Shown piece by piece: positions 46,346-55,856 of a DNA stretch of 56,498 nucleotides. Below the pieces are notes generated by a model, which saw only the letters and a program-made list of their open reading frames with translations, was not told the origin of the DNA and did no database searches. Within the stretch, counting starts at the first letter, position 1, and every line of letters begins with the position of its first letter. The stretch is from Bacteroidota bacterium (GTDB taxonomy: Bacteria; Bacteroidota; Bacteroidia; Bacteroidales; UBA10428), in the NCBI GenBank assembly GCA_003252385.1, contig QKEH01000062.1, positions 1 to 56,498 on the forward strand. Direction: 5' to 3'. A program made the translations under genes and the position numbers.

Positions 46346-46693
46346 AATTTTTGTGTATTAAGGCACAATAGGCAATTGCGCCAAGTTTGACCAATGCTAT
46401 TAAAGTTAGTCTAATTCATTCAAACAAACCACATTGAACCCTACTCTATCCTCGTGCATGCAATCCCTGGCTGATGAGAGCGCGCTCACGGACGTCTCGA
46501 GATAAAAAACCGGGTTACCCATGATCTATTTCATGGTTCATCTTTCCAATTGAAAATTTTATTATCATGAACAACAAATTCGTAACTTACTATGAATGAT
46601 ATCGATATTATTTCTAATATTGCATTACGGATAATCTGAACCACGTATCAGGTTGCATGCCTGGCGGAATTTGCTAAGCAGATCCATAAAAAT

Positions 46694-46749
46694 CCCAACC
46701 TCTGCATAGTATAGTGAATCAAATTGCTACGAACGTACAAGGGTACGTT
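46694..46749 (+). repeat. Leader element, copy A (diverged)
   Basis: The copy starts CCCAACCTCTG, identical over 11 bases to copy C, then carries TATAGT and CAAA in the same order as copies B and C with a 4-nt insertion. At 46732-46738 and 46743-46749 the arms AACGTAC/GTACGTT make a perfect 7-bp stem with a 4-nt loop. It lacks the small ORF and second hairpin of the other copies. Confidence 0.55.
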
Positions 46750-46830
46750 GTGTTTGGCTTTTTGCCCCTGAATTACACAAAACTCTGGTACCATAATTAT
46801 GCAAGCAACATCAACACATAAGCACAAGTT

Positions 46831-46959
46831 CTCAACCTCTAATTGTAGTGCAGACCAAACTATTAAAGCTCGCAGTAGTGAGTTTTTTAGTAGTATGTAA
46901 CCTGTAAACCCATTTAACTATGATTAGAAACTACAACTTCTAAGCACCACAATCTGGTG
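46831..46959 (+). promoter_or_regulatory. Leader element, copy B, upstream of agarase 1
   Basis: The conserved 38-nt motif (46831-46868) is identical to copy C at 30 of 38 positions, counted by eye. Hairpin I has arms CTCGC/GTGAG (46869-46873, 46878-46882) with a 4-nt loop, and pairing can extend outward through AAAG/TTTT; a run of six T follows. A mini-ORF ATG...TAA (46920-46943, MIRNYNF) begins within ACTATGATTA, shared with copy C. Hairpin II has arms CACCA/TGGTG (46945-46949, 46955-46959), a 5-nt loop and then AAATC. It ends 184 nt before the agarase start. Confidence 0.6.
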
Positions 46960-47143
46960 AAATCAATCTCCTATTCCTTTATTCCGAAAGAGGACTGAAA
47001 TCTTCACGCAGGAAAAGAGCACCATGAATTACCGCTCTGATTACCAGCAGAACTACCTTGTTTTGTTGAAAGGGATTATTGTATCTGATCCGGAACAAAA
47101 CATTGCAATGCTACTTCAATAAACACTCTAATTATTTAAAACA

Positions 47144-48289
47144 ATGAAAAAACAATTCCTTTTAAGTATGGCACTGGCCGGTTTGGCTCTTGCCACCCAT
47201 GCAGCCGACTGGGATGGTATCGCCGTACCGGCAAATGCGGGTACTGGTAAAACCTGGCAATTACAATCCAATGTATCGGATGGTTTTAACTACGTGAGCA
47301 GTGGAAGCAGCCGTCCAACGGCATTCACCAGCAAGTGGAACGCTTCCTATATTAATGCATGGACGGGACCGGGCACAACCATTTATAATGCCCCCCAGGC
47401 ATGGTCCAATGGCTCACAACTCGCCATTCAGGCACAATCGGCTCCAAACAGTAAAGTGTACTGTGGTATCATCAGCTCAAAGAACACCATTCAATATCCG
47501 GTATATTTTGAAATACGGGCAAAAATTATGGATGAGGTTTTATCGAATGCATTCTGGACCTGCACCAGCGATGCAACCCAGGAAATTGATGTTATGGAAG
47601 GATATGGCAGCAGCCGTTCCGACCAAACCTGGTTCGCCAATCGGATGCATCTCTCCCACCATGTATTTCAACTAAGTCCATGGAAGGATTATCAGCCCAC
47701 CGATAATGCTTCATGGTACTATAGCAGCACTCCCTGGCGCACTGCCTACCACCGCTATGGTTGCTATTGGAAAGATCCCTGGACCCTGGAATACTATATT
47801 GATGGCGTGAAGAAACGCACGGTTTCAGGAAAAAGTATGATTGACCCCAATAACTACACCGGTGGCACCGGCTTGAACAAGGCCACTAAAATAATTATAG
47901 ATTGCGAGAGCCAAAGTTCCTGGAGACCGGAACCTACGGTAGCCGAATTGGCTGATGGCAATAAGAACATTTTCTGGGTAGATTGGATCCGGGTATACAA
48001 ACCCGTAGCTAAATCGGCCAGGGATGAACTGAATCCGGCGCTTGCACAACAAGCTATCGTTTACCCCAACCCGGTGGAAGATGGCCAGCTATACATTGCC
48101 GGACTATCCACCGAAACAGATTACACCATGGAGCTGGTTAATTTAAACGGCCAGGTGATTTACTCCACCGTACTCCAGGGTTCCGATTTCTATCCGATTG
48201 ATTTGACGCATACTGCCGGCATGGGTATTTACCTCCTGAAACTGACCAGTGATCAGGGAATTGAAACGCATAAGGTTGTGATTCAATAG
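47144..48289 (+). CDS. Secreted GH16 beta-agarase (1) with T9SS sorting domain
   Basis: This extracellular enzyme should hydrolyse beta-1,4 links of agar or agarose. The 381 residues comprise a signal peptide (1-20, ending THAAD), a GH16 jelly-roll domain (about 21-285) and a C-terminal type IX secretion sorting domain (about 303-381, VYPNPVEDGQLYIAGLS... to the final ETHKVVIQ). The GH16 signature is EIDVME: nucleophile Glu147, Asp149 and acid/base Glu152. Blocks known from GH16 agarases are present: WDGIAVPANAG at the mature start, LSHHVF, YQPTD, DPNNYTGGTGLNKA and FWVDWIRVYKPV. Specificity for agar is an inference from these blocks; porphyran or mixed action is possible. A strong terminator follows. 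Confidence 0.87.
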   Translation: MKKQFLLSMALAGLALATHAADWDGIAVPANAGTGKTWQLQSNVSDGFNYVSSGSSRPTAFTSKWNASYINAWTGPGTTIYNAPQAWSNGSQLAIQAQSAPNSKVYCGIISSKNTIQYPVYFEIRAKIMDEVLSNAFWTCTSDATQEIDVMEGYGSSRSDQTWFANRMHLSHHVFQLSPWKDYQPTDNASWYYSSTPWRTAYHRYGCYWKDPWTLEYYIDGVKKRTVSGKSMIDPNNYTGGTGLNKATKIIIDCESQSSWRPEPTVAELADGNKNIFWVDWIRVYKPVAKSARDELNPALAQQAIVYPNPVEDGQLYIAGLSTETDYTMELVNLNGQVIYSTVLQGSDFYPIDLTHTAGMGIYLLKLTSDQGIETHKVVIQ

Positions 48290-48293
48290 ACGT

Positions 48294-48358
48294 AAATCCG
48301 TATTCCCACCATTATTCTCATGCGGATTTTTCTTCCCATGGATAATGGTGGGTTTTTT
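48294..48358 (+). terminator. Terminator of agarase 1 with alternative stem
   Basis: CCCACCATTAT (48305-48315) and ATAATGGTGGG (48342-48352) form a perfect 11-bp stem followed by six T. A second possible stem, AAATCCG (48294-48300) with CGGATTT (48323-48329), overlaps it, is followed by TTTC, and is mutually exclusive with part of the loop. Confidence 0.85.
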
Positions 48359-49376
48359 ATTCGATCACGAAAACATGCGGTTCTTGTTCCGCACAATATT
48401 GCGATACTTTGTTATCTTGAAAGTCGGGTATCGATACCATGCAAAGCTTTGTTTATTGAAGCTTTCAACTACATTTCCTCTAAAACCAGATGAATACCAC
48501 CAATTTAATCCAGCTGCAGTTTTTTTGGGGTAGTAAATACAGCCTGATCCATTTGCCATGTCAATTCTACATACAGTTGGTACGTTAGGCAAATAGAACT
48601 AAATACTTGCTAATAGTTAAAAATCTATTGCACGAAACGATACCTATATTTAGATGCTATTTGAATTCTTCCAAGTAGCCAAATTCCATCACTCCCAACC
48701 TCTGATTATAGTACAATACAAACTATTAAGGGCGCTCGGTTGCGAGCTTGTTAACCCACAACTTTACTAATACATTTTGACTATGATTATAAACCCCTGA
48801 CCTTTTTAACCATCCTTTGGTTGAAATTTCAGTTTCAACATTACCAACCTCAATACATGTCTTCTACGGAGTAAACAGGGTTATTAAACATGTGTAATAC
48901 TACTATTTACTTCTGCCCGGTAAGCTAACTGTACCATGTTGTATGGTTTAATGGAATAATTGTGTCCTATTATTCAGCTTCTGAATAACCATCTAAAAAT
49001 TGAACGGAATGAACGACTTGCATTACCAGATTATTGCATGCCTGGCAATGGCTTTTAATGTAACCGTTTGAATATGGCAGTTACAGCTCACCGGAAGCGC
49101 ATTGTCTGCCTGCACCATCCAATGTATGGCGCGATAGAACTAACTGAGAAATTGAATGTAAACTCACAGTTCATCCGGAAAAAGTTTTGGCTGGTTTAAC
49201 TCTCATTCAACCTTATCTAAACATTCAACGCTAATCCTTAGGCTTCCTTCCACCTTGGGGTAATAGTGGCCAGTTCAAACCAAAAACAAACAACAACGAC
49301 TCAACTGCTATCATTATTGCTTGTGAACACGAACTAGAACAATCCTAATTAGTAACACTAATCTAAAAGTTAAGAA
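48359..49376 (+). other. 1-kb non-coding region between the agarases
   Basis: The region is AT-rich and holds copy C of the leader element at its centre. No ORF of credible composition is present; the open frame at 48345-48533 begins inside the terminator and has no recognisable content. After copy C there are about 550 nt before the ATG, in which I see the inverted hexamer ACATGT at about 48855 and 48888 but no other structure I can support. Confidence 0.6.
48694..48822 (+). promoter_or_regulatory. Leader element, copy C, upstream of agarase 2
   Basis: The motif starts CCCAACCTCTG (48694) and contains the shared AAACTATTAA. Hairpin I has arms GCTCG/CGAGC (48734-48738, 48743-48747) with a 4-nt loop, so its stem bases differ from copy B while pairing is kept. 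The mini-ORF ATG...TGA (48783-48800, MIINP) starts in the shared ACTATGATTA. Hairpin II has arms AACCA/TGGTT (48808-48812, 48818-48822) with a 5-nt loop, then GAAAT. The first base pair of hairpin II is C-G in copy B and A-T here, a compensatory change. Confidence 0.6.
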
Positions 49377-50522
49377 ATGAAAAAACTTGTAATTTTGGCG
49401 GCGCTTGCATGCGCTGCCGCACCATCGTTCGGTGCCAATGACTGGGACGGAATTGCAATTCCTGCTACAGCTCCCTCTGGCAAAACCTGGGTTCTTCAAG
49501 GTACCTCCGACAATTTTAATTACTCCGGACAACCGTCGGCATTCACCAACCGTTGGAAGCCTTCCTTTGTCAACTCCTGGACCGGCCCCAGTATCACGGT
49601 TTGGCATCCGGACCATGTATGGGGTAACGGCAGCTACATGGCGGTTCAGGCACACCGCATGCCTGGCACTAATAAGATTTATGCCGGTTGTATGACCTCA
49701 AAGGCCAGTTATACCTATCCCATTTACTTGGAAGCCAAAGTAAAATTGGCTAACAACGTAATGGCTTCGGACGTTTGGATGATCAGTGCCGATCAAACTC
49801 AGGAAATTGACGATCTGGAAGCCTATGGCAGCGATCGCTCCGGACAGGAATGGTATGCACAACGGATTCACCTGAGCCACCATGTATTTGTACGCTCACC
49901 GTTTGCAGATTACCAACCCACCGATGCCGGAAGCTGGTATTACAACGGAACCACCTGGCGCAACGCATTTCACCGCTATGGGGTATATTGGAAGGATGCA
50001 TGGACCTTACAATATTACATTGACGGAAAACTGGTACGCACTGTAAGTGGTAAAAGCATGATTGACCCTAAAAATTATACAGGCGGTACCGGATTGAACA
50101 AAGCCATGTATGTGATTCTGAATATGGAACAACAACAATGGAGAACCGATGGAGGCATTGTGCCTACCGATGCCGATCTGCTGGACCAAAACAACCGCAA
50201 CATTATGTGGGTCGACTGGGTTCGGGTGTACAAAGCGGTTGCGAAATCGGCCGATGATCAACTTGAATCGAACACACAATTAACTGCCTCCATTTATCCC
50301 AACCCCGTAGCAGACGGTCAGCTGAACATTGCCGGACTGTCCTCCGAAGTAGACTACCAAATGGAAGTGATCAACCTAAACGGACAACTGGTGTATTCCA
50401 CCCTGTTGCAGGAAACCGAATTCTATCAGATGAATCTTACCGGGGTAGCAAGCAGCGGCGTCTATGTTCTGAAACTATCCAGTACGCAAGGCATTGAAAC
50501 TCATAAATTAATCATCCAATAA
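49377..50522 (+). CDS. Secreted GH16 beta-agarase (2) with T9SS sorting domain
   Basis: This is the second secreted agarase-like enzyme, also 381 residues and colinear with the first: signal peptide (1-19, ending SFGAND), GH16 domain (about 20-285) and T9SS sorting domain (about 305-381, IYPNPVADGQLNIAGLS... to ETHKLIIQ). The catalytic signature is EIDDLE with nucleophile Glu143, Asp145 and acid/base Glu148. WDGIAIPATAPSGKTW, LSHHVFVRSPFADYQPTDAGSWYYNG and DPKNYTGGTGLNKAMYVILNMEQ match GH16 agarases closely, more so than the first enzyme does. The pair is a tandem duplication; different loops around the active site (for example the LNMEQQQWR versus IDCESQSSWR segment) suggest different chain positions or substrates. 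Confidence 0.9.
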   Translation: MKKLVILAALACAAAPSFGANDWDGIAIPATAPSGKTWVLQGTSDNFNYSGQPSAFTNRWKPSFVNSWTGPSITVWHPDHVWGNGSYMAVQAHRMPGTNKIYAGCMTSKASYTYPIYLEAKVKLANNVMASDVWMISADQTQEIDDLEAYGSDRSGQEWYAQRIHLSHHVFVRSPFADYQPTDAGSWYYNGTTWRNAFHRYGVYWKDAWTLQYYIDGKLVRTVSGKSMIDPKNYTGGTGLNKAMYVILNMEQQQWRTDGGIVPTDADLLDQNNRNIMWVDWVRVYKAVAKSADDQLESNTQLTASIYPNPVADGQLNIAGLSSEVDYQMEVINLNGQLVYSTLLQETEFYQMNLTGVASSGVYVLKLSSTQGIETHKLIIQ

Positions 50523-50651
50523 AACAGGTGATACCATAGGAGTTTCTATCAATCGCATCGGATGAGCTACGCCGTGAGACCGGAAGCAGGGCCATGCGAT
50601 TTGAATGGAAAACTTTGAATAACCTTTTACAGGTGTGGTATAGCGCATTTC

Positions 50652-50701
50652 CGCCATTGCACAACTTGGAGTCAGACATCCGGAGTGCAATGGCGTTTTT
50701 G
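50652..50701 (+). terminator. Intrinsic terminator after agarase 2
   Basis: CGCCATTGCAC (50652-50662) and GTGCAATGGCG (50685-50695) form a perfect 11-bp stem followed by six T. The loop holds a further GGA/TCC pair (50668-50670, 50679-50681). Confidence 0.87.
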
Positions 50702-51066
50702 TTGCCATACGCCACCATAGCTTCACCGGGCAACCCGAAAGACATTCTATGAGACTTTCAAGGCAATCGTCCAAACCGTACTTGCTTACTGCAATTCCTG
50801 GATACAGCGCCCGAAAAAGCTGGCATTCATGCCTGCTAAAATAACCTTTACCAGTATCAAGTAATGGCTATTACACCGATAACATGTCAAAATAGGGTAT
50901 GTATTGGTCAAAAAAGGAATATAAAGATATTTGCATCTGTATTTACTTTGTATAGGTCACTTCTATATCCGTTCGAAGAACTTATGATCCAAAAACTCAA
51001 TAAAACGAACCGGAAGCAAAAAGAAATAAAGTAACCCTGATAGCTCTCAAGTCACAAACCAGAATT
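50702..51066 (+). other. Non-coding gap upstream of the P450 operon
   Basis: Beyond the putative promoter at 50904-50933 I see no ORF, no copy of the leader element and no other repeat in these 365 bases. Confidence 0.5.
50904..50933 (+). promoter_or_regulatory. Putative promoter of the P450 operon
   Basis: TTG (50904-50906) and GATATTTG (50926-50933) are separated by exactly 19 bp, matching the Bacteroidota consensus TTG / 19 bp / TAnnTTTG with one mismatch in the -7 box. The -7 box ends 133 nt before the P450 ATG, so a leader would be transcribed. Confidence 0.45.
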
Positions 51067-52248
51067 ATGAAACTAAAACCATTTAATCCGATGAAAAAAA
51101 GCACTATTCCCGATCCATTCGAAAAAGCCCGTGTTGAATCGGGACACCGCGAAATGAACGATCAAAACGATCCGGTAAGCATGATCCTTCGACATAAGGA
51201 TGTACGAAAATCAGCCCACAACTGGAAGACCTTTCAATCCGGGGCAACACCCGGGCGAATTGTGGTACCCTCCGAAGTAAATATCAGGAGCCTGCGGCAA
51301 ATTCCATTCGAAGTGGATCCACCCGAACATCAGAGTTACCGCGATTTAGTCGAACCCTGGTTTAAACGCCCTCTGGAGCAAAGCTATCAGGATAAGCTGG
51401 CCGCTATCATTCAATCCGAACTGGACAAGGCAATCCGAAAGGGTACCATTGAAGTGGTACACGAATTCTCACTTCCCTTACAATCGCGTGCACTAACGGT
51501 GCTGTTAAATATGCCGGAAGACGATGCCGCTTTATGGATTTCGTGGGGAACCCACGTTTTTCGTAGTGAAGGCGATCCGCTTGACGGTGGAAAAGCCAGC
51601 GGACTAACCGATTACCTGGACAAAAAGGTGGAAGAAGTCAAAAAAAATCCCGGAACAGATTTATTTTCGGTTTTGCTGGCTTCCGAAATAAACGGCAGGA
51701 AACTGTCCGATGACGAAGTAAAAGGAGTGATGATGCTGACCTTTGCCGGTGGCCGGGATACAGTGATCAATTTTGTAACTAACACCTTCGCGTATCTGGC
51801 CGACCATCCCGAATCGATAGAAAGGTTGCGCAACGAACCTGAAATTCTTGAAACAGCCATTGAAGAGCTGGTTCGGTACTTTTCGCCCCTTACACACATG
51901 GGACGCGTAGTTACCCAGGACACCGCAGTTTGCGAACATGCGGTAAAAAACGACACCCGGATTTCGCTGTGCTGGGCTTCTGCCAACCGGGATGCCAGCG
52001 TATTTGAAAACCCCAATGAAGTAATACTCGATCGCAAGGTTAATCCCCATGTCAGTTTCGGTTTTGGAGCACACAATTGTTTGGGAGCCACACATGCCCG
52101 CACCCTGATGAAAATTCTGCTGACCAAGCTGGTAGAAAGCGTAAAATCCATGGAAATTCTGGATTGTAAGGAAAATATGGAAAACCTGGATGGTTTGGAA
52201 CGTAAAGTTGGTTTTCATCAAATCCGCATCAAACTCAATCCCCGCTAA
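51067..52248 (+). CDS. Cytochrome P450, probable 6-O-methyl-D-galactose demethylase
   Basis: This 393-residue soluble bacterial P450 carries every class signature: I-helix AGGRDT (Gly228-Gly229, Asp231, Thr232), ExxR Glu267-Arg270, and the heme loop FGFGAHNCLG with cysteine ligand Cys338. It is followed by its own ferredoxin and reductase, with the order P450-ferredoxin-reductase and gaps of 39 and 35 nt. In agar- and porphyran-degrading marine bacteria such as Zobellia and Formosa an equivalent three-component system (CYP236 family) oxidatively demethylates 6-O-methyl-D-galactose, releasing formaldehyde and galactose. The neighbouring agarases support the same role here. The identity of the substrate is an inference. 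An internal ATG nine codons in is also possible. Confidence 0.87.
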   Translation: MKLKPFNPMKKSTIPDPFEKARVESGHREMNDQNDPVSMILRHKDVRKSAHNWKTFQSGATPGRIVVPSEVNIRSLRQIPFEVDPPEHQSYRDLVEPWFKRPLEQSYQDKLAAIIQSELDKAIRKGTIEVVHEFSLPLQSRALTVLLNMPEDDAALWISWGTHVFRSEGDPLDGGKASGLTDYLDKKVEEVKKNPGTDLFSVLLASEINGRKLSDDEVKGVMMLTFAGGRDTVINFVTNTFAYLADHPESIERLRNEPEILETAIEELVRYFSPLTHMGRVVTQDTAVCEHAVKNDTRISLCWASANRDASVFENPNEVILDRKVNPHVSFGFGAHNCLGATHARTLMKILLTKLVESVKSMEILDCKENMENLDGLERKVGFHQIRIKLNPR

Positions 52249-52287
52249 CCGGGCAACCCATTCTTTATCGTACTTTAAGAATCAATT

Positions 52288-52608
52288 ATGGCTAAAATCA
52301 CATTTATTACACGCGACAATCAAACAATAACCGTCGAGGGAGAATCCGGCTCCGTAATGGCGCTGGCCAGACAGAATGGAGTAAAAGGCATCGAAGGGGA
52401 ATGCGGAGGTGTATGCTCCTGCGCAACCTGCCACGTACACGTTCAAAATGGCGAATTTTCGCGAACCGGACAGCAAGGTACCATTGAAAAAGACCTATTG
52501 GAACTTAACGACCATGCCGATGAAACCAGCCGTCTCTGTTGTCAGATCCGGATCAGTGATGAAATCGATGGTTTGGTACTCAGAGTGGCGGAGAAAAACT
52601 CCTTTTAG
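52288..52608 (+). CDS. 2Fe-2S ferredoxin of the adrenodoxin/putidaredoxin type
   Basis: This 106-residue electron carrier has the vertebrate/bacterial-type cluster motif C-x5-C-x2-C ... C: Cys39, Cys45, Cys48 and a fourth ligand in RLCCQI (most likely Cys85). Extra cysteines at 43 and 84 are next to ligands but probably do not bind the cluster. It should pass electrons from the FAD reductase encoded next to the P450 encoded before. Its size, sequence order and position leave little doubt. Confidence 0.93.
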   Translation: MAKITFITRDNQTITVEGESGSVMALARQNGVKGIEGECGGVCSCATCHVHVQNGEFSRTGQQGTIEKDLLELNDHADETSRLCCQIRISDEIDGLVLRVAEKNSF

Positions 52609-52643
52609 GCACTCGCTATTTTATCAAATTAACACCGTAGATC

Positions 52644-53888
52644 ATGGAAACTGAAAATCGGACATGCATTATTATTGGTGCCAGCCAGGCAGGGGTAAGT
52701 TGTGCCTTTGCACTTCGCGAAGAAGGATGGGCAGGCCGGATTCTGCTTTACGATACAGATCCCAAGCTGCCCTACTACCGTCCACCTTTATCAAAAACCG
52801 CCCTTACCGGCGAAGAGCTCATGTACAATCATATACTCAAGCCTTTGGAACTATACCGGAAAGAGAACATTCAACTCGGTTTAGGCATTAAAGTAGTGGC
52901 TCTTGACGCCCTTAATAAAGAAGTAATTCTAAGTGATCATACCCAGGTAAATTACGACCGTTTGGTTTTGGCCACAGGAGCCCGTCCTTTTATTCCGAAT
53001 ATTGAAGGAATTCAAACTGCTGCACAGGTTTTTGTGTTACGAACCCAACAGGATGCCGAAGCGATACGGCACGCCCTTGAGAAAAGCATGGACAAAGAGG
53101 TGGTTATTATCGGGGGTGGATATATCGGTTTGGAAACCGCAGCATCCATCAAAAAACTGGGTGGAAAGGTAACGGTTCTCGAACGGGAAAAACGGGTCCT
53201 CGAGCGGGTTACTGCTCCTGAGATGTCGGAGTTTTTTATGGCGCTTCATGCAGAGCAGGGCGTACACATTGAAGTCAATAAAAATGTGGTGGCCATACAC
53301 GGAAACCCCAAGCAAATGGTGGTCTGCGATGATGGTTCTGCATACCGTGCCGATTTGGTTATCGTGGGCGTGGGCGTGCTGGTTAACACTGAATTGGCCG
53401 AGCAGGCCAAACTAAATATGGATCGGGGAATTTTAGTGGATGCATCGATGCGCACCAACCAGGAGCACATTTATGCCATTGGCGATTGCACCCGACACCA
53501 CAATCCGTTCTACGATCGATTTGTGCGGATCGAGTCCGTTCAAAATGCCACCGATCAGGGGAAAATTGCGGCAGCCGCAATCTGCGGAAAAAATCCGACT
53601 TACGATGTGCTGCCCTGGTTTTGGTCGGATCAATACGATGTAAAACTTCAAATGGTAGGCCTCTCCGAAGGTTACAATCAGGTGGTGGTGCGTAAAGAAA
53701 CCGGTGATACTCCAAGCTTCTCCATCTGGTATTTCGACCAGGATCAATTGTTGGCAGTCGATGCGGTGAACCATGCAAAAGCCTATATGCTCGGTGCAAA
53801 GTTTATCCGACAAAAAACACGCGTGGATAAAACAAAATTGGCGGATAACGGGCTTGAATTCAAACCAGCCAATCTGGTAATGGCTTAA
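52644..53888 (+). CDS. FAD-dependent NAD(P)H:ferredoxin reductase
   Basis: This 414-residue flavoprotein resembles putidaredoxin and rhodocoxin reductases. The FAD motif is IIIGASQAGVSCAFALREEG (9-28). The mid-chain NAD(P)H motif is VVIIGGGYIGLETAASI followed by VTVLEREKRVLERV, where the glutamate at the end of the second strand points to NADH rather than NADPH. A second FAD site is YAIGDCTRH (about 275), and the C-terminal domain closes the fold. It receives hydride from NAD(P)H and reduces the 2Fe-2S ferredoxin. It is the last gene of the three-gene P450 operon and ends 21 nt before the convergent AraC gene. Confidence 0.93.
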   Translation: METENRTCIIIGASQAGVSCAFALREEGWAGRILLYDTDPKLPYYRPPLSKTALTGEELMYNHILKPLELYRKENIQLGLGIKVVALDALNKEVILSDHTQVNYDRLVLATGARPFIPNIEGIQTAAQVFVLRTQQDAEAIRHALEKSMDKEVVIIGGGYIGLETAASIKKLGGKVTVLEREKRVLERVTAPEMSEFFMALHAEQGVHIEVNKNVVAIHGNPKQMVVCDDGSAYRADLVIVGVGVLVNTELAEQAKLNMDRGILVDASMRTNQEHIYAIGDCTRHHNPFYDRFVRIESVQNATDQGKIAAAAICGKNPTYDVLPWFWSDQYDVKLQMVGLSEGYNQVVVRKETGDTPSFSIWYFDQDQLLAVDAVNHAKAYMLGAKFIRQKTRVDKTKLADNGLEFKPANLVMA

Positions 53889-53909
53889 CCGGAACCCGGT
53901 TTAAAGGGG

Positions 53910-54773
53910 CTAACGGAGATCCTCTTCCCGGATACGGTACGAACGCACAAAATCCTTTTTGTACTGATAGGGAGTGATGGATTTGAATTTCTTAAACTGA
54001 CGGTGAAAGTAGGGAAGGCTGTCGAAACCACATTGGTAACAAGCATCCGAAACGGTAAGGTCTTTCTCCTGGAGCAGTTTACAAACCCGATGAATACGGT
54101 ATTCATTCAAGAAAGTAAAAAATGGTTTGCCCATGGCCTTGCTAAAGAAACGGGAGAATGCCGACTCGGCAAGTCCAACCCTGGCAGCCATCAATTCTAA
54201 ATGAATTTTATTCTGGTAATTGCCCTCAATGTAATTGAAAATTGCATTTAGTCTTTCGCTGGTGGTCGGAGTGATTTTCTGGTTGCGAATGGTGCTGCAA
54301 ATATAACGTTTATCACGGCTTACGGATAATTGCTGAAGCAACTGTAAAAAATGAATGTATTGTTGCATACCTTCAGCCTTAATGGTGGTAAGCATTTGTT
54401 GAAAGAGAGTTTCCGAGGACTCAAACTGCAAACCCCGAAGACTGTCGTTGAATAAGGGTTTTAAAGCGGAAAGCTCGGGGTGGTTCTCTACCAACGAACT
54501 TTTCCACTGAATAACCAGCGACTCACAATAGGCAGTGGAGCCTACATCGTTCCGCCAGCAATGCGTAGTATTGGGAGCAAGAAAAACCAGGTCGCCTTCT
54601 TCAAAAGGCTCAATGCTGTCACCCACATAGCGCGTTCCGGTGCCTTTTACAATATACACCAACTCGTACTCCGGGTGAAAATGAAGTGGAACATTAAAAT
54701 TTTCGTTCCGGTAAACATAGGCCAGAAGTAACACTTCACGCTCAAGAACAATATTTTCCCGTATGGCTTTCAT
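53910..54773 (-). CDS. AraC-family transcriptional regulator with cupin sensor domain
   Basis: The 287-residue regulator has an N-terminal cupin (about 20-110, PLHFHPEYELVYIVKGTGTRYVGD, with metal-type histidines), a linker helix region and a C-terminal AraC domain (about 190-275). The AraC domain has two helix-turn-helix motifs: HLELMAARVGLAESAFSRFFSK and TVSDACYQCGFDSLPYFHRQFKK. Sugar-sensing AraC proteins commonly regulate polysaccharide use. It lies convergent to the P450 operon and divergent from the isomerase-like gene, so it may control either, but its ligand and targets are not visible. Confidence 0.9.
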   Translation of the reverse strand: MKAIRENIVLEREVLLLAYVYRNENFNVPLHFHPEYELVYIVKGTGTRYVGDSIEPFEEGDLVFLAPNTTHCWRNDVGSTAYCESLVIQWKSSLVENHPELSALKPLFNDSLRGLQFESSETLFQQMLTTIKAEGMQQYIHFLQLLQQLSVSRDKRYICSTIRNQKITPTTSERLNAIFNYIEGNYQNKIHLELMAARVGLAESAFSRFFSKAMGKPFFTFLNEYRIHRVCKLLQEKDLTVSDACYQCGFDSLPYFHRQFKKFKSITPYQYKKDFVRSYRIREEDLR

Positions 54774-55043
54774 TGCAAATTGACTCTTACAAAATAAACA
54801 TTTACTTAAGAAAAAAGTTACAGCTGGTGAATCAATGCAAAATCACTTTAAAAACAATCCTGCACCATCCCATTCCCCTGAGGAACGAACTGTCCCCCCC
54901 TGAAGGATCGGCTCAGAGAACAAGTTCAAACGATGGCATTTCGTTTCTTGCGCAAGAACTATTCAGCCACGTGCAGCATGTACAAACTAAACCTATATGA
55001 ACTATCTTACAATTTTCCAGTCATTTACTAAATCAGGATCACT

Positions 55044-55856
55044 ATGGAAATAAAATTTCTTTGCCCGTATTGGGGCATGGAAGGAACGCCTGCCCAGGAA
55101 TTTATCGAAAAAGTGGTTAAAGCCGGATACGAGGGTGTCGAAGTAAACTCACCTGACGATGTCCACTTTGAAAAAGAGCTGCTCCATGCCATTCAGGAAA
55201 ACCATCTTGCCTTTGTGGCTCAGCAGTGGTTGGCACCCAAAAGCGAAACTGTTACTGACTATATGAGCCGGATGGAAACCCTGCTGCTAAGACGCGCCGC
55301 CATGCTCCCCGATTTTATTAATTCGCACACCGGCAAAGATTTCTTTTCCTTCGATGACAATTGCCGGATTGTTGAGAAATGCCTCGAAATTGAACAGCGA
55401 ACAGGTGTTACCATCCGTCACGAAACCCACCGCGGACGTTTCAATTACAGTGCCGCCACCACCGCTGGTTTTCTAAAGCAATTCCCCAACCTGCAACTGT
55501 CTGCCGACTTTTCGCATTGGGTAACGGTTTCCGAATCGTTTCTCGAAGACCAGCAAGAATCGGTCGAACAGGCGATCCAAAGAAGCGGATACATTCATGC
55601 CCGGGTGGGAAACACACAAACCCCTCAGGTAAATCATCCCTTTGCCCCCGAACACGAAGCCTGTCTGAATGCCTTTGTCCACTGGTGGAAACAAATTATC
55701 CGTTCAGCAGAAGCCCAGGGAGAACAGGTGTTTTATATCTGCCCCGAATTTGGCCCATGGCCCTACCTGGCTACAGTTCCCTTCACCCATGTTCCCATCG
55801 CCAATCAATGGGATACCAATATCAGCATGATGAACTATCTAAGAACCACTTTATAA
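55044..55856 (+). CDS. Sugar phosphate isomerase/epimerase-like TIM barrel protein
   Basis: The 270-residue protein has an (alpha/beta)8 barrel of the AP-endonuclease-2/xylose isomerase-like group, opening with KFLCPYWGMEGTPAQEFIEKVVKAGYEGVEV. Potential metal ligands at strand ends are the glutamates in EGVEV and RHETHRG, the Asp/His in SADFSHW, and the His in IHARVG (an inference from position). It likely isomerises or epimerises a sugar or sugar acid. The 187-nt-plus upstream region carries the divergent AraC promoter. Its position next to the agar locus suggests a role in catabolism of methylated or anhydro sugars, though this is not shown. No sorting signal is present, so it is cytoplasmic. 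Confidence 0.8.
   Translation: MEIKFLCPYWGMEGTPAQEFIEKVVKAGYEGVEVNSPDDVHFEKELLHAIQENHLAFVAQQWLAPKSETVTDYMSRMETLLLRRAAMLPDFINSHTGKDFFSFDDNCRIVEKCLEIEQRTGVTIRHETHRGRFNYSAATTAGFLKQFPNLQLSADFSHWVTVSESFLEDQQESVEQAIQRSGYIHARVGNTQTPQVNHPFAPEHEACLNAFVHWWKQIIRSAEAQGEQVFYICPEFGPWPYLATVPFTHVPIANQWDTNISMMNYLRTTL

Follow-up and report, generated by a model that had tools for sequence, protein, structure and literature searches.

A conserved repeated element upstream of two tandem agarase-like genes in a Bacteroidota bacterium and its possible role as a leader RNA

The agarase-like locus and its three element copies

The stretch of DNA considered here (the window) comprises 56,498 nucleotides of contig QKEH01000062.1 from a Bacteroidota bacterium and carries two GH16-type, agarase-like genes of 381 amino acids each on the plus strand. 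Gene 1 (47144..48289), whose product has a T9SS sorting tail, and gene 2 (49377..50522) are tandem paralogues that are 55% identical in protein. For gene 1, the assignment as an agarase comes from relatives in agarolytic bacteria and from the EIDxxE motif; a Pfam search at 0.001 gave no GH16 match. Downstream of the agarases on the plus strand lie genes for a cytochrome P450, a 2Fe-2S ferredoxin and a ferredoxin reductase (51067..53888), and these are followed on the minus strand by an AraC-family gene with cupin and HTH domains (53910..54773), a candidate regulator of the locus. Earlier work in marine Bacteroidota describes such a P450/ferredoxin/reductase set as demethylating 6-O-methyl-D-galactose (PMC10033563). 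A similar arrangement occurs in Algoriphagus aestuarii (locus L067), where GH16, AraC-family (34% identity over 281 amino acids), P450, ferredoxin and reductase genes are adjacent. Among the best 80 of 249 loci with agarase relatives, relatives of the P450, ferredoxin and reductase were found in three, two of the P450 matches being partial, and an AraC relative was near full length in one locus and partial in another.

Three copies of an element precede these genes, all on the plus strand. Two of them, copy A (46693..46806) and copy B (46830..46931), precede gene 1, and a single one, copy C (48693..48794), precedes gene 2. Copy A, the weakest, is supported by local alignment to C, and B and C are supported by their alignment to one another and by fold z-scores. 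The first-pass annotation had recognized all three copies by a shared motif; its positions of 46694, 46831 and 48694 were two bases early, since CAACCTCT starts at 46696, 46833 and 48696. Taken alone, this 8-mer is not significant, as 21 of 100 shuffled windows contained at least three occurrences.

The case for homology comes from longer stretches of sequence. Copies B and C share a 37-nt block with 30 identical positions (81%) and a 19-nt block with 17 (89%), and the spacing between the two blocks is exactly equal. Their local alignment scored 198 where the null mean is 57, and none of 300 shuffles reached it. Over the whole length of A, the alignment of A with C scored 121 (null mean 57; 0/300 shuffles), and the score of A against B was not significant (98/300 shuffles). 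When 27,091 background tiles drawn from 752 kb of loci and the window were searched, none reached 121 with A or C as the query (best scores, 118 and 120); with B as the query, four reached 121 and none reached 198. A covariance model built from B and C only returned A at E=0.64 in a 3-kb search, outranked by a chance match within gene 1 at E=0.19. Judged by sequence, then, B and C are clear homologues, and A is probably a copy of the same element and a weaker homologue of C. The middles of B and C are identical at only 10 of 46 positions when aligned without gaps; an initial reading of these middles as unrelated was dropped, as a one-base gap makes the surroundings of hairpin P2 (described below) partly alignable.

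The conservation of the element can be set against the divergence of everything around it. Genes 1 and 2 are identical at 32 of 86 fourfold-degenerate sites (37%), which we take as near saturation. Ungapped identity between B and C is 25–30% in the upstream flank and 38% in the 29 bases past the module, and neither the upstream flanks (score reached by 265/300 shuffles) nor the downstream flanks (42/300 shuffles) align significantly. Because the copies are homologous inside flanks that do not align, though the genes are 55% identical in protein and 37% identical at fourfold sites, the element is probably under selection, and blocks that keep 81% and 89% identity between diverged flanks suggest that purifying selection maintains a discrete module. 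These same figures bear on another explanation, namely that the element is a functionless remnant of a tandem duplication that included a gene and its upstream region. The genes are indeed tandem paralogues, and C resembles A and B. At a fourfold identity of 37%, however, any neutral similarity should be gone, while the blocks have kept theirs and the flanks have not, and a mere remnant appears decidedly improbable. Recent sequence exchange between the copies may also account for the identity of the blocks, but conservation is uneven inside the module, which argues against it.

Base pairing within the element

One structure of the element is a hairpin, P2, which has a 4-nt loop in every copy. 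It spans 46732..46749 in A (7 bp), 46869..46882 in B (5 bp, followed by TTTTTT) and 48734..48747 in C (5 bp, followed by TTGTT), all on the plus strand. The 4-nt-loop hairpin reported in the first-pass annotation is thus present in all three copies, 38, 36 and 38 bases past the start of CAACCTCT in A, B and C, respectively. Hairpins with a 5-bp stem and a 4-nt loop are common enough by themselves: within a 7-base range of offsets, 4.8% of positions in the window have one, as do 3.9% of those in local intergenic DNA. A hairpin with a T-rich tail located 33–60 bases downstream is rarer (1.4% of window positions), and in 2,699 intergenic bases from four regions there were just three such sites, one per copy, under a criterion set post hoc once the copies had been inspected. 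In dinucleotide-shuffled middles, P2 with a T-rich tail arose by chance at frequencies of 0.044 for A, 0.001 for B and 0.041 for C. Under the same post hoc criterion, every copy carries a terminator-type hairpin and U-tract, strong only in B, and P2 was missing from a separate terminator scan that used different rules.

A hairpin that ends in a T-rich tail could conceivably mark the 3′ end of a small trans-acting RNA gene, with the three copies lying upstream of the agarases by chance. Earlier work on Bacteroides thetaiotaomicron describes intergenic sRNAs that have intrinsic terminators (PMC7366714), and the tail of P2 would suit such an end. Block 2, the best conserved part of the element, would nevertheless lie beyond P2 and outside such an RNA, and the copies sit ahead of the two tandem agarase genes, with no further one found in the rest of the assembled genome. 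We give this explanation only a slim chance.

A second kind of pairing, absent from the first-pass annotation and a stronger signal than P2, brings together the 5′ and 3′ conserved blocks of B and C. In this stem, P1, the 5′ arm of B (TAATTGTAGT, 46840..46849) pairs with ACTATGATTA at 46917..46926, and the 5′ arm of C (TGATTATAGT, 48703..48712) pairs with the same sequence at 48780..48789, all on the plus strand. The joint helix is 10 bp long and occupies identical columns in the two copies, a result that 10 of 20,000 permutations of the columns matched; on the minus strand, B and C share a helix of 5 bp at best. Of 5000 window positions examined at the same geometry, 8 had a helix at least the length of that in B (12 bp) and 69 had one at least the length of that in C (10 bp). 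When the 3′ arm was shuffled 1000 times, the duplex energy of the arms was never reached for B and was reached once for C; when both arms were shuffled, it was reached once for B and three times for C in 1000. The only non-Watson-Crick pairs in the 10-bp P1 of these copies are G-U wobbles. Copy A has a P1-like helix of 8 bp in a shifted register, formed by TGCATAGT (46703..46710, plus strand) and ATTATGCA (46796-46803). An equally good helix occurs at 47 of 1500 positions in local intergenic DNA and at 73 of 3000 in the window, and on the minus strand the arms of A pair just as well (a level reached by 1/500 shuffles).

Folding of the copies gave a similar picture. The fold z-score of B was -5.86 on the plus strand (46833-46931) and 0.24 on the minus strand (46831-46935), and that of C was -2.74 (48696-48794) and -0.74 (48694-48798), respectively. 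The fold of A is unremarkable (z -1.20), and the whole 711-nt leader of C folds no better than its shuffles (z -0.29).

The 5′ arm of P1 has an alternative partner, since it can also pair with ACUAUUAA immediately downstream of the arm, forming P1′. On a three-row alignment, RNAalifold favours the local P1′ together with P2, and its consensus of 14 pairs contains one double change, among the five pairs of P1′, with a covariation term that is unfavourable overall (+0.79 kcal/mol). On the three-row sequence alignment, P1 pairs in 26 of 30 cells and has no double change; with the partner slid by 3 columns, 60% of the cells are still paired. Two compensatory pairs once proposed in the closing stem of A were withdrawn, as they need a register imposed by the structure, at odds with how the 3′ arm aligns by sequence. 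The earlier argument that the stems vary while pairing persists is not supported as covariation: the closing stem has no double change, and the hairpin of A uses a 10-nt insertion missing in C. The P2 stems are in fact not homologous column by column, given that the 5′ arm in A lies within that insertion. Strand-specific base pairing in B and C is thus plausible, while a covariation test on three sequences has almost no power.

Tiny ORFs and a further hairpin had also been described in the first-pass annotation. The ORFs are present in B (MIRNYNF) and C (MIINP), and the 3′ arm of P1 in B includes the ATG of its ORF, but the idea that they act as leader peptides fails because A has ATA in place of the ATG. 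A conserved short ORF, such as a leader-peptide attenuator would have, was not found among the copies: the ORFs of B and C are unlike in both length and sequence, and A is without an ATG. The second hairpin, of 5 bp with a 5-nt loop, is likewise present, but it lies outside the homologous module and is at chance level, as 28% of 61-base stretches hold one.

Distribution of the element

The observation that the element occurs nowhere else in the window proved true, and it extends to the whole assembled genome (97.55% complete, 182 contigs). In this genome, the block-1 pattern with up to three mismatches gave two matches, block 2 with up to two mismatches gave two, covariance model R1 gave two, and model R2, for which all three copies were used, gave three. 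Upstream of the three further GH16 paralogues of the genome there was no copy, with the scope for one of them (contig C107) being the 288 bases before the contig ends. An integron attC site, a MITE and an invertible promoter were set aside on inspection because the interior is poorly shared, the genome holds no other copies, and the arms as DNA have only four consecutive Watson-Crick pairs in both copies.

Beyond the host, a sample of 392 genomes of the order had the block-1 pattern in one, namely the host itself, and model R1 matched one of 23 genomes of the family. Over nine genomes of the genus, model R2 returned the host and one match at E=8. Under stricter filters, R1 matched two of 395 genomes sampled from the phylum; the second match (genome G714) had E=0.0136 for the single genome, with 395 searched, lies inside a protein-coding frame and has three broken stem pairs, and it was rejected as chance. 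The viral collection held no exact match to block 1.

The agarase relatives themselves were also surveyed. A query with a single agarase over the named genomes returned no relative, and an alignment-based query returned 249. No credible element was seen in GH16 loci of the best 80 of these 249, for which mostly about 4 kb of upstream sequence was covered (only 306 bases in locus L054), or in eight further GH16 loci of the class. Weak matches in GH16 loci, with E-values from 1.8 to 6.8, were treated as chance. The agarase was found in one of 148 relatives of the host searched, the host itself, and in a class-wide sample of 395 genomes six had it, the host included. This rarity leaves no close orthologous leader for comparison. 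The covariance-model search that had been proposed as a check thus returned no credible homologue outside the host in the sampled genomes. A lack of further homologues and a lack of significant covariation had been named beforehand as findings that would speak against a shared leader, and both are what was obtained outside the host in the samples searched, with three sequences holding almost no power for the latter.

Rfam returned no match at gathering score in the window, in agreement with the earlier remark that no named RNA has this sequence, and a search of 46346-49400 gave a single weak match, which falls outside the element on the opposite strand. Among the paper titles listed, none names an agarase leader RNA, which is weak evidence.

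A candidate leader RNA and its rivals

The position of the copies relative to their genes provides evidence on how they might be used. The element lies 212 bases (B) and 582 bases (C) from the start codon. In B. thetaiotaomicron, half of the 5′ UTRs are no longer than 32 nt (the median), and those longer than 100 nt make up 13.5% (PMC7366714). A terminator-like site at 48335 follows gene 1, and so C presumably needs its own promoter past this point. A promoter scan found no full match and, upstream of A, no partial match. Partial matches occur upstream of C at 48449-48477 and 48525-48555 (5/6 in the -7 box, with TTG), roughly 140–250 bases away. A third, TTG-N20-TACATTTT, lies within C between the arms and blocks and is absent in B. 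Three such matches in a 1.1-kb region compare with about 0.5 expected from the window density of about 0.5 per kb. The promoter matches near C are nonetheless partial and prone to chance.

The strongest rival to a leader RNA is a DNA operator or upstream activating site, in which the blocks would bind a regulator, such as the AraC-family protein of the cluster, and the hairpins would be incidental. The AraC-family gene at 53910-54773 belongs to the cluster, and its relative in A. aestuarii sits beside the same set of genes. The sequence of the blocks has been kept beyond what mere pairing would call for, with the same spacing between them in B and C, and by eye, blocks 1 and 2 hold related CTMTNATTA-like words. 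The promoter-like match between the blocks of C would fit as well, and, at 212 and 582 bases, the elements lie farther from the genes than is usual for leaders of this phylum. On the other hand, 582 bases is also far for a bacterial activator site, and the promoter-like match of C is missing in B and of a kind that occurs at 0.5 per kb. A half-site matrix was derived from the CTMTNATTA-like words (four training sites, all from B and C); among its 30 best matches in the window, the training sites apart, none falls in front of the P450 gene or in the gap that separates araC from its divergent neighbour, where the same site might be expected if the regulator acted at other promoters of the locus. 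Finally, departures from Watson-Crick pairing in the 10-bp P1 that are exclusively G-U would fit an RNA made from one strand. We consider an operator somewhat unlikely, if a serious possibility.

The reading that we favour, tentatively and at a little less than an even chance, is that of a lineage-specific, attenuator-like, cis-acting leader RNA transcribed with the agarase genes. The first-pass annotation had likewise proposed a shared leader RNA or attenuator. What stands of that proposal is a discrete conserved element before both tandem GH16 genes, with pairing in B and C that strongly favours the coding strand; covariation and the leader peptide do not. In weighing the leader, we counted on its side the identity of the blocks, P1, the strand-biased folds, the tails of P2 and the two partial promoters upstream of C. 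Counted on the other side were the 212- and 582-base distances, long for the phylum, the partial nature of the promoters, the host-only distribution and the ordinary fold of A.

A leader RNA of this kind could work as follows. Calculation shows that the copies are homologous, where the limits of the module lie, that B and C can pair on the coding strand, and that P2 carries a T-rich tail. Transcription would pass in each copy from the conserved 5′ block through P2 and its tail to the distal conserved block. By appearance, P2 and its tail would be a weak intrinsic terminator or a pause site, and we infer that termination or pausing at this U-tract would reduce read-through into the agarase gene. 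In B and C, the distal block may pair back to the 5′ block as P1, and since P1′ would use the same arm, the two folds would be mutually exclusive. The choice between P1′ and P1 in response to some signal, or a factor bound to a conserved block, might then tune read-through. P1 itself cannot keep transcription from ending at P2, since its 3′ arm is transcribed only afterwards, and it could act only on RNA that has already been read through, for instance on stability or later folding. A bolder form of this idea would see in the element a new and very narrowly distributed class of regulatory RNA, evolved in one lineage together with its agarase genes, in which one arm chooses a local or a distal partner around a terminator-like hairpin, with two copies in a row ahead of one gene and a single copy ahead of its paralogue. 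We think this rather unlikely.

Control of polysaccharide-degrading genes in Bacteroidota is usually ascribed to protein regulators. If the leader reading is true, an RNA element before agarases would add an RNA layer to this protein-based control and would illustrate the origin of a leader inside one lineage. If the element is an operator instead, it would still mark the control site of the agarase cluster.

Several known systems provide points of comparison. AraC-family operators in sugar-utilisation loci resemble the present case in the AraC-family gene of the locus and the repeated half-site-like words, but differ in that the best 30 matches include no sites at the other promoters of this locus. 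The cis-regulatory families of Rfam share with the element a position upstream of genes and strand-specific folding, although it matches none of them at gathering score. Closest in design are attenuators with intrinsic terminators, which the element would resemble in its upstream hairpin with a T-rich tail and in the alternative partners of its conserved 5′ arm. It differs from them in having no conserved leader peptide, only a weak terminator in C, a transcription that is only predicted, and no known ligand or protein.

Weak matches downstream of the repeated element

An additional CAACCTC word occurs at 48845-48851, 50 bases past copy C of the repeated element upstream of the agarase-like genes. 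The stretch containing it scored E=2.3 with the covariance model built from copies B and C alone, and the word may have arisen by chance. A second match, to the FourU thermometer, lies at 48964-49027 on the minus strand, opposite to that of the agarase, and scored below threshold (25.1 bits against a gathering cutoff of 60; E=0.067); this match is probably due to chance.

Possibly interrupted GH16 relatives

A GH16 paralogue at another of the loci compared carries a long GTA triplet repeat (L011:2450-2500), translated as valines, after which the reading frame meets a stop, while the DNA beyond is serine-rich in a different frame. This arrangement may stem from slippage, from phase variation or from a mistake in the assembly. 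In other genomes of the class, three GH16 relatives (L105, L108 and L109) gave matches with internal stop codons and are perhaps decayed copies.

The agarase gene cluster

The region at 47144-55856 comprises the pair of GH16-type agarase-like genes (47144..48289 and 49377..50522, both on the plus strand), a P450, a ferredoxin, a ferredoxin reductase, an AraC-family regulator and a sugar-isomerase-like gene. Together, these resemble a locus for the use of agar or porphyran in which 6-O-methylgalactose would be demethylated. Relatives of the P450 set also adjoin GH16 at L067 (Algoriphagus aestuarii), L074 and L094, from among 80 loci of named genomes.
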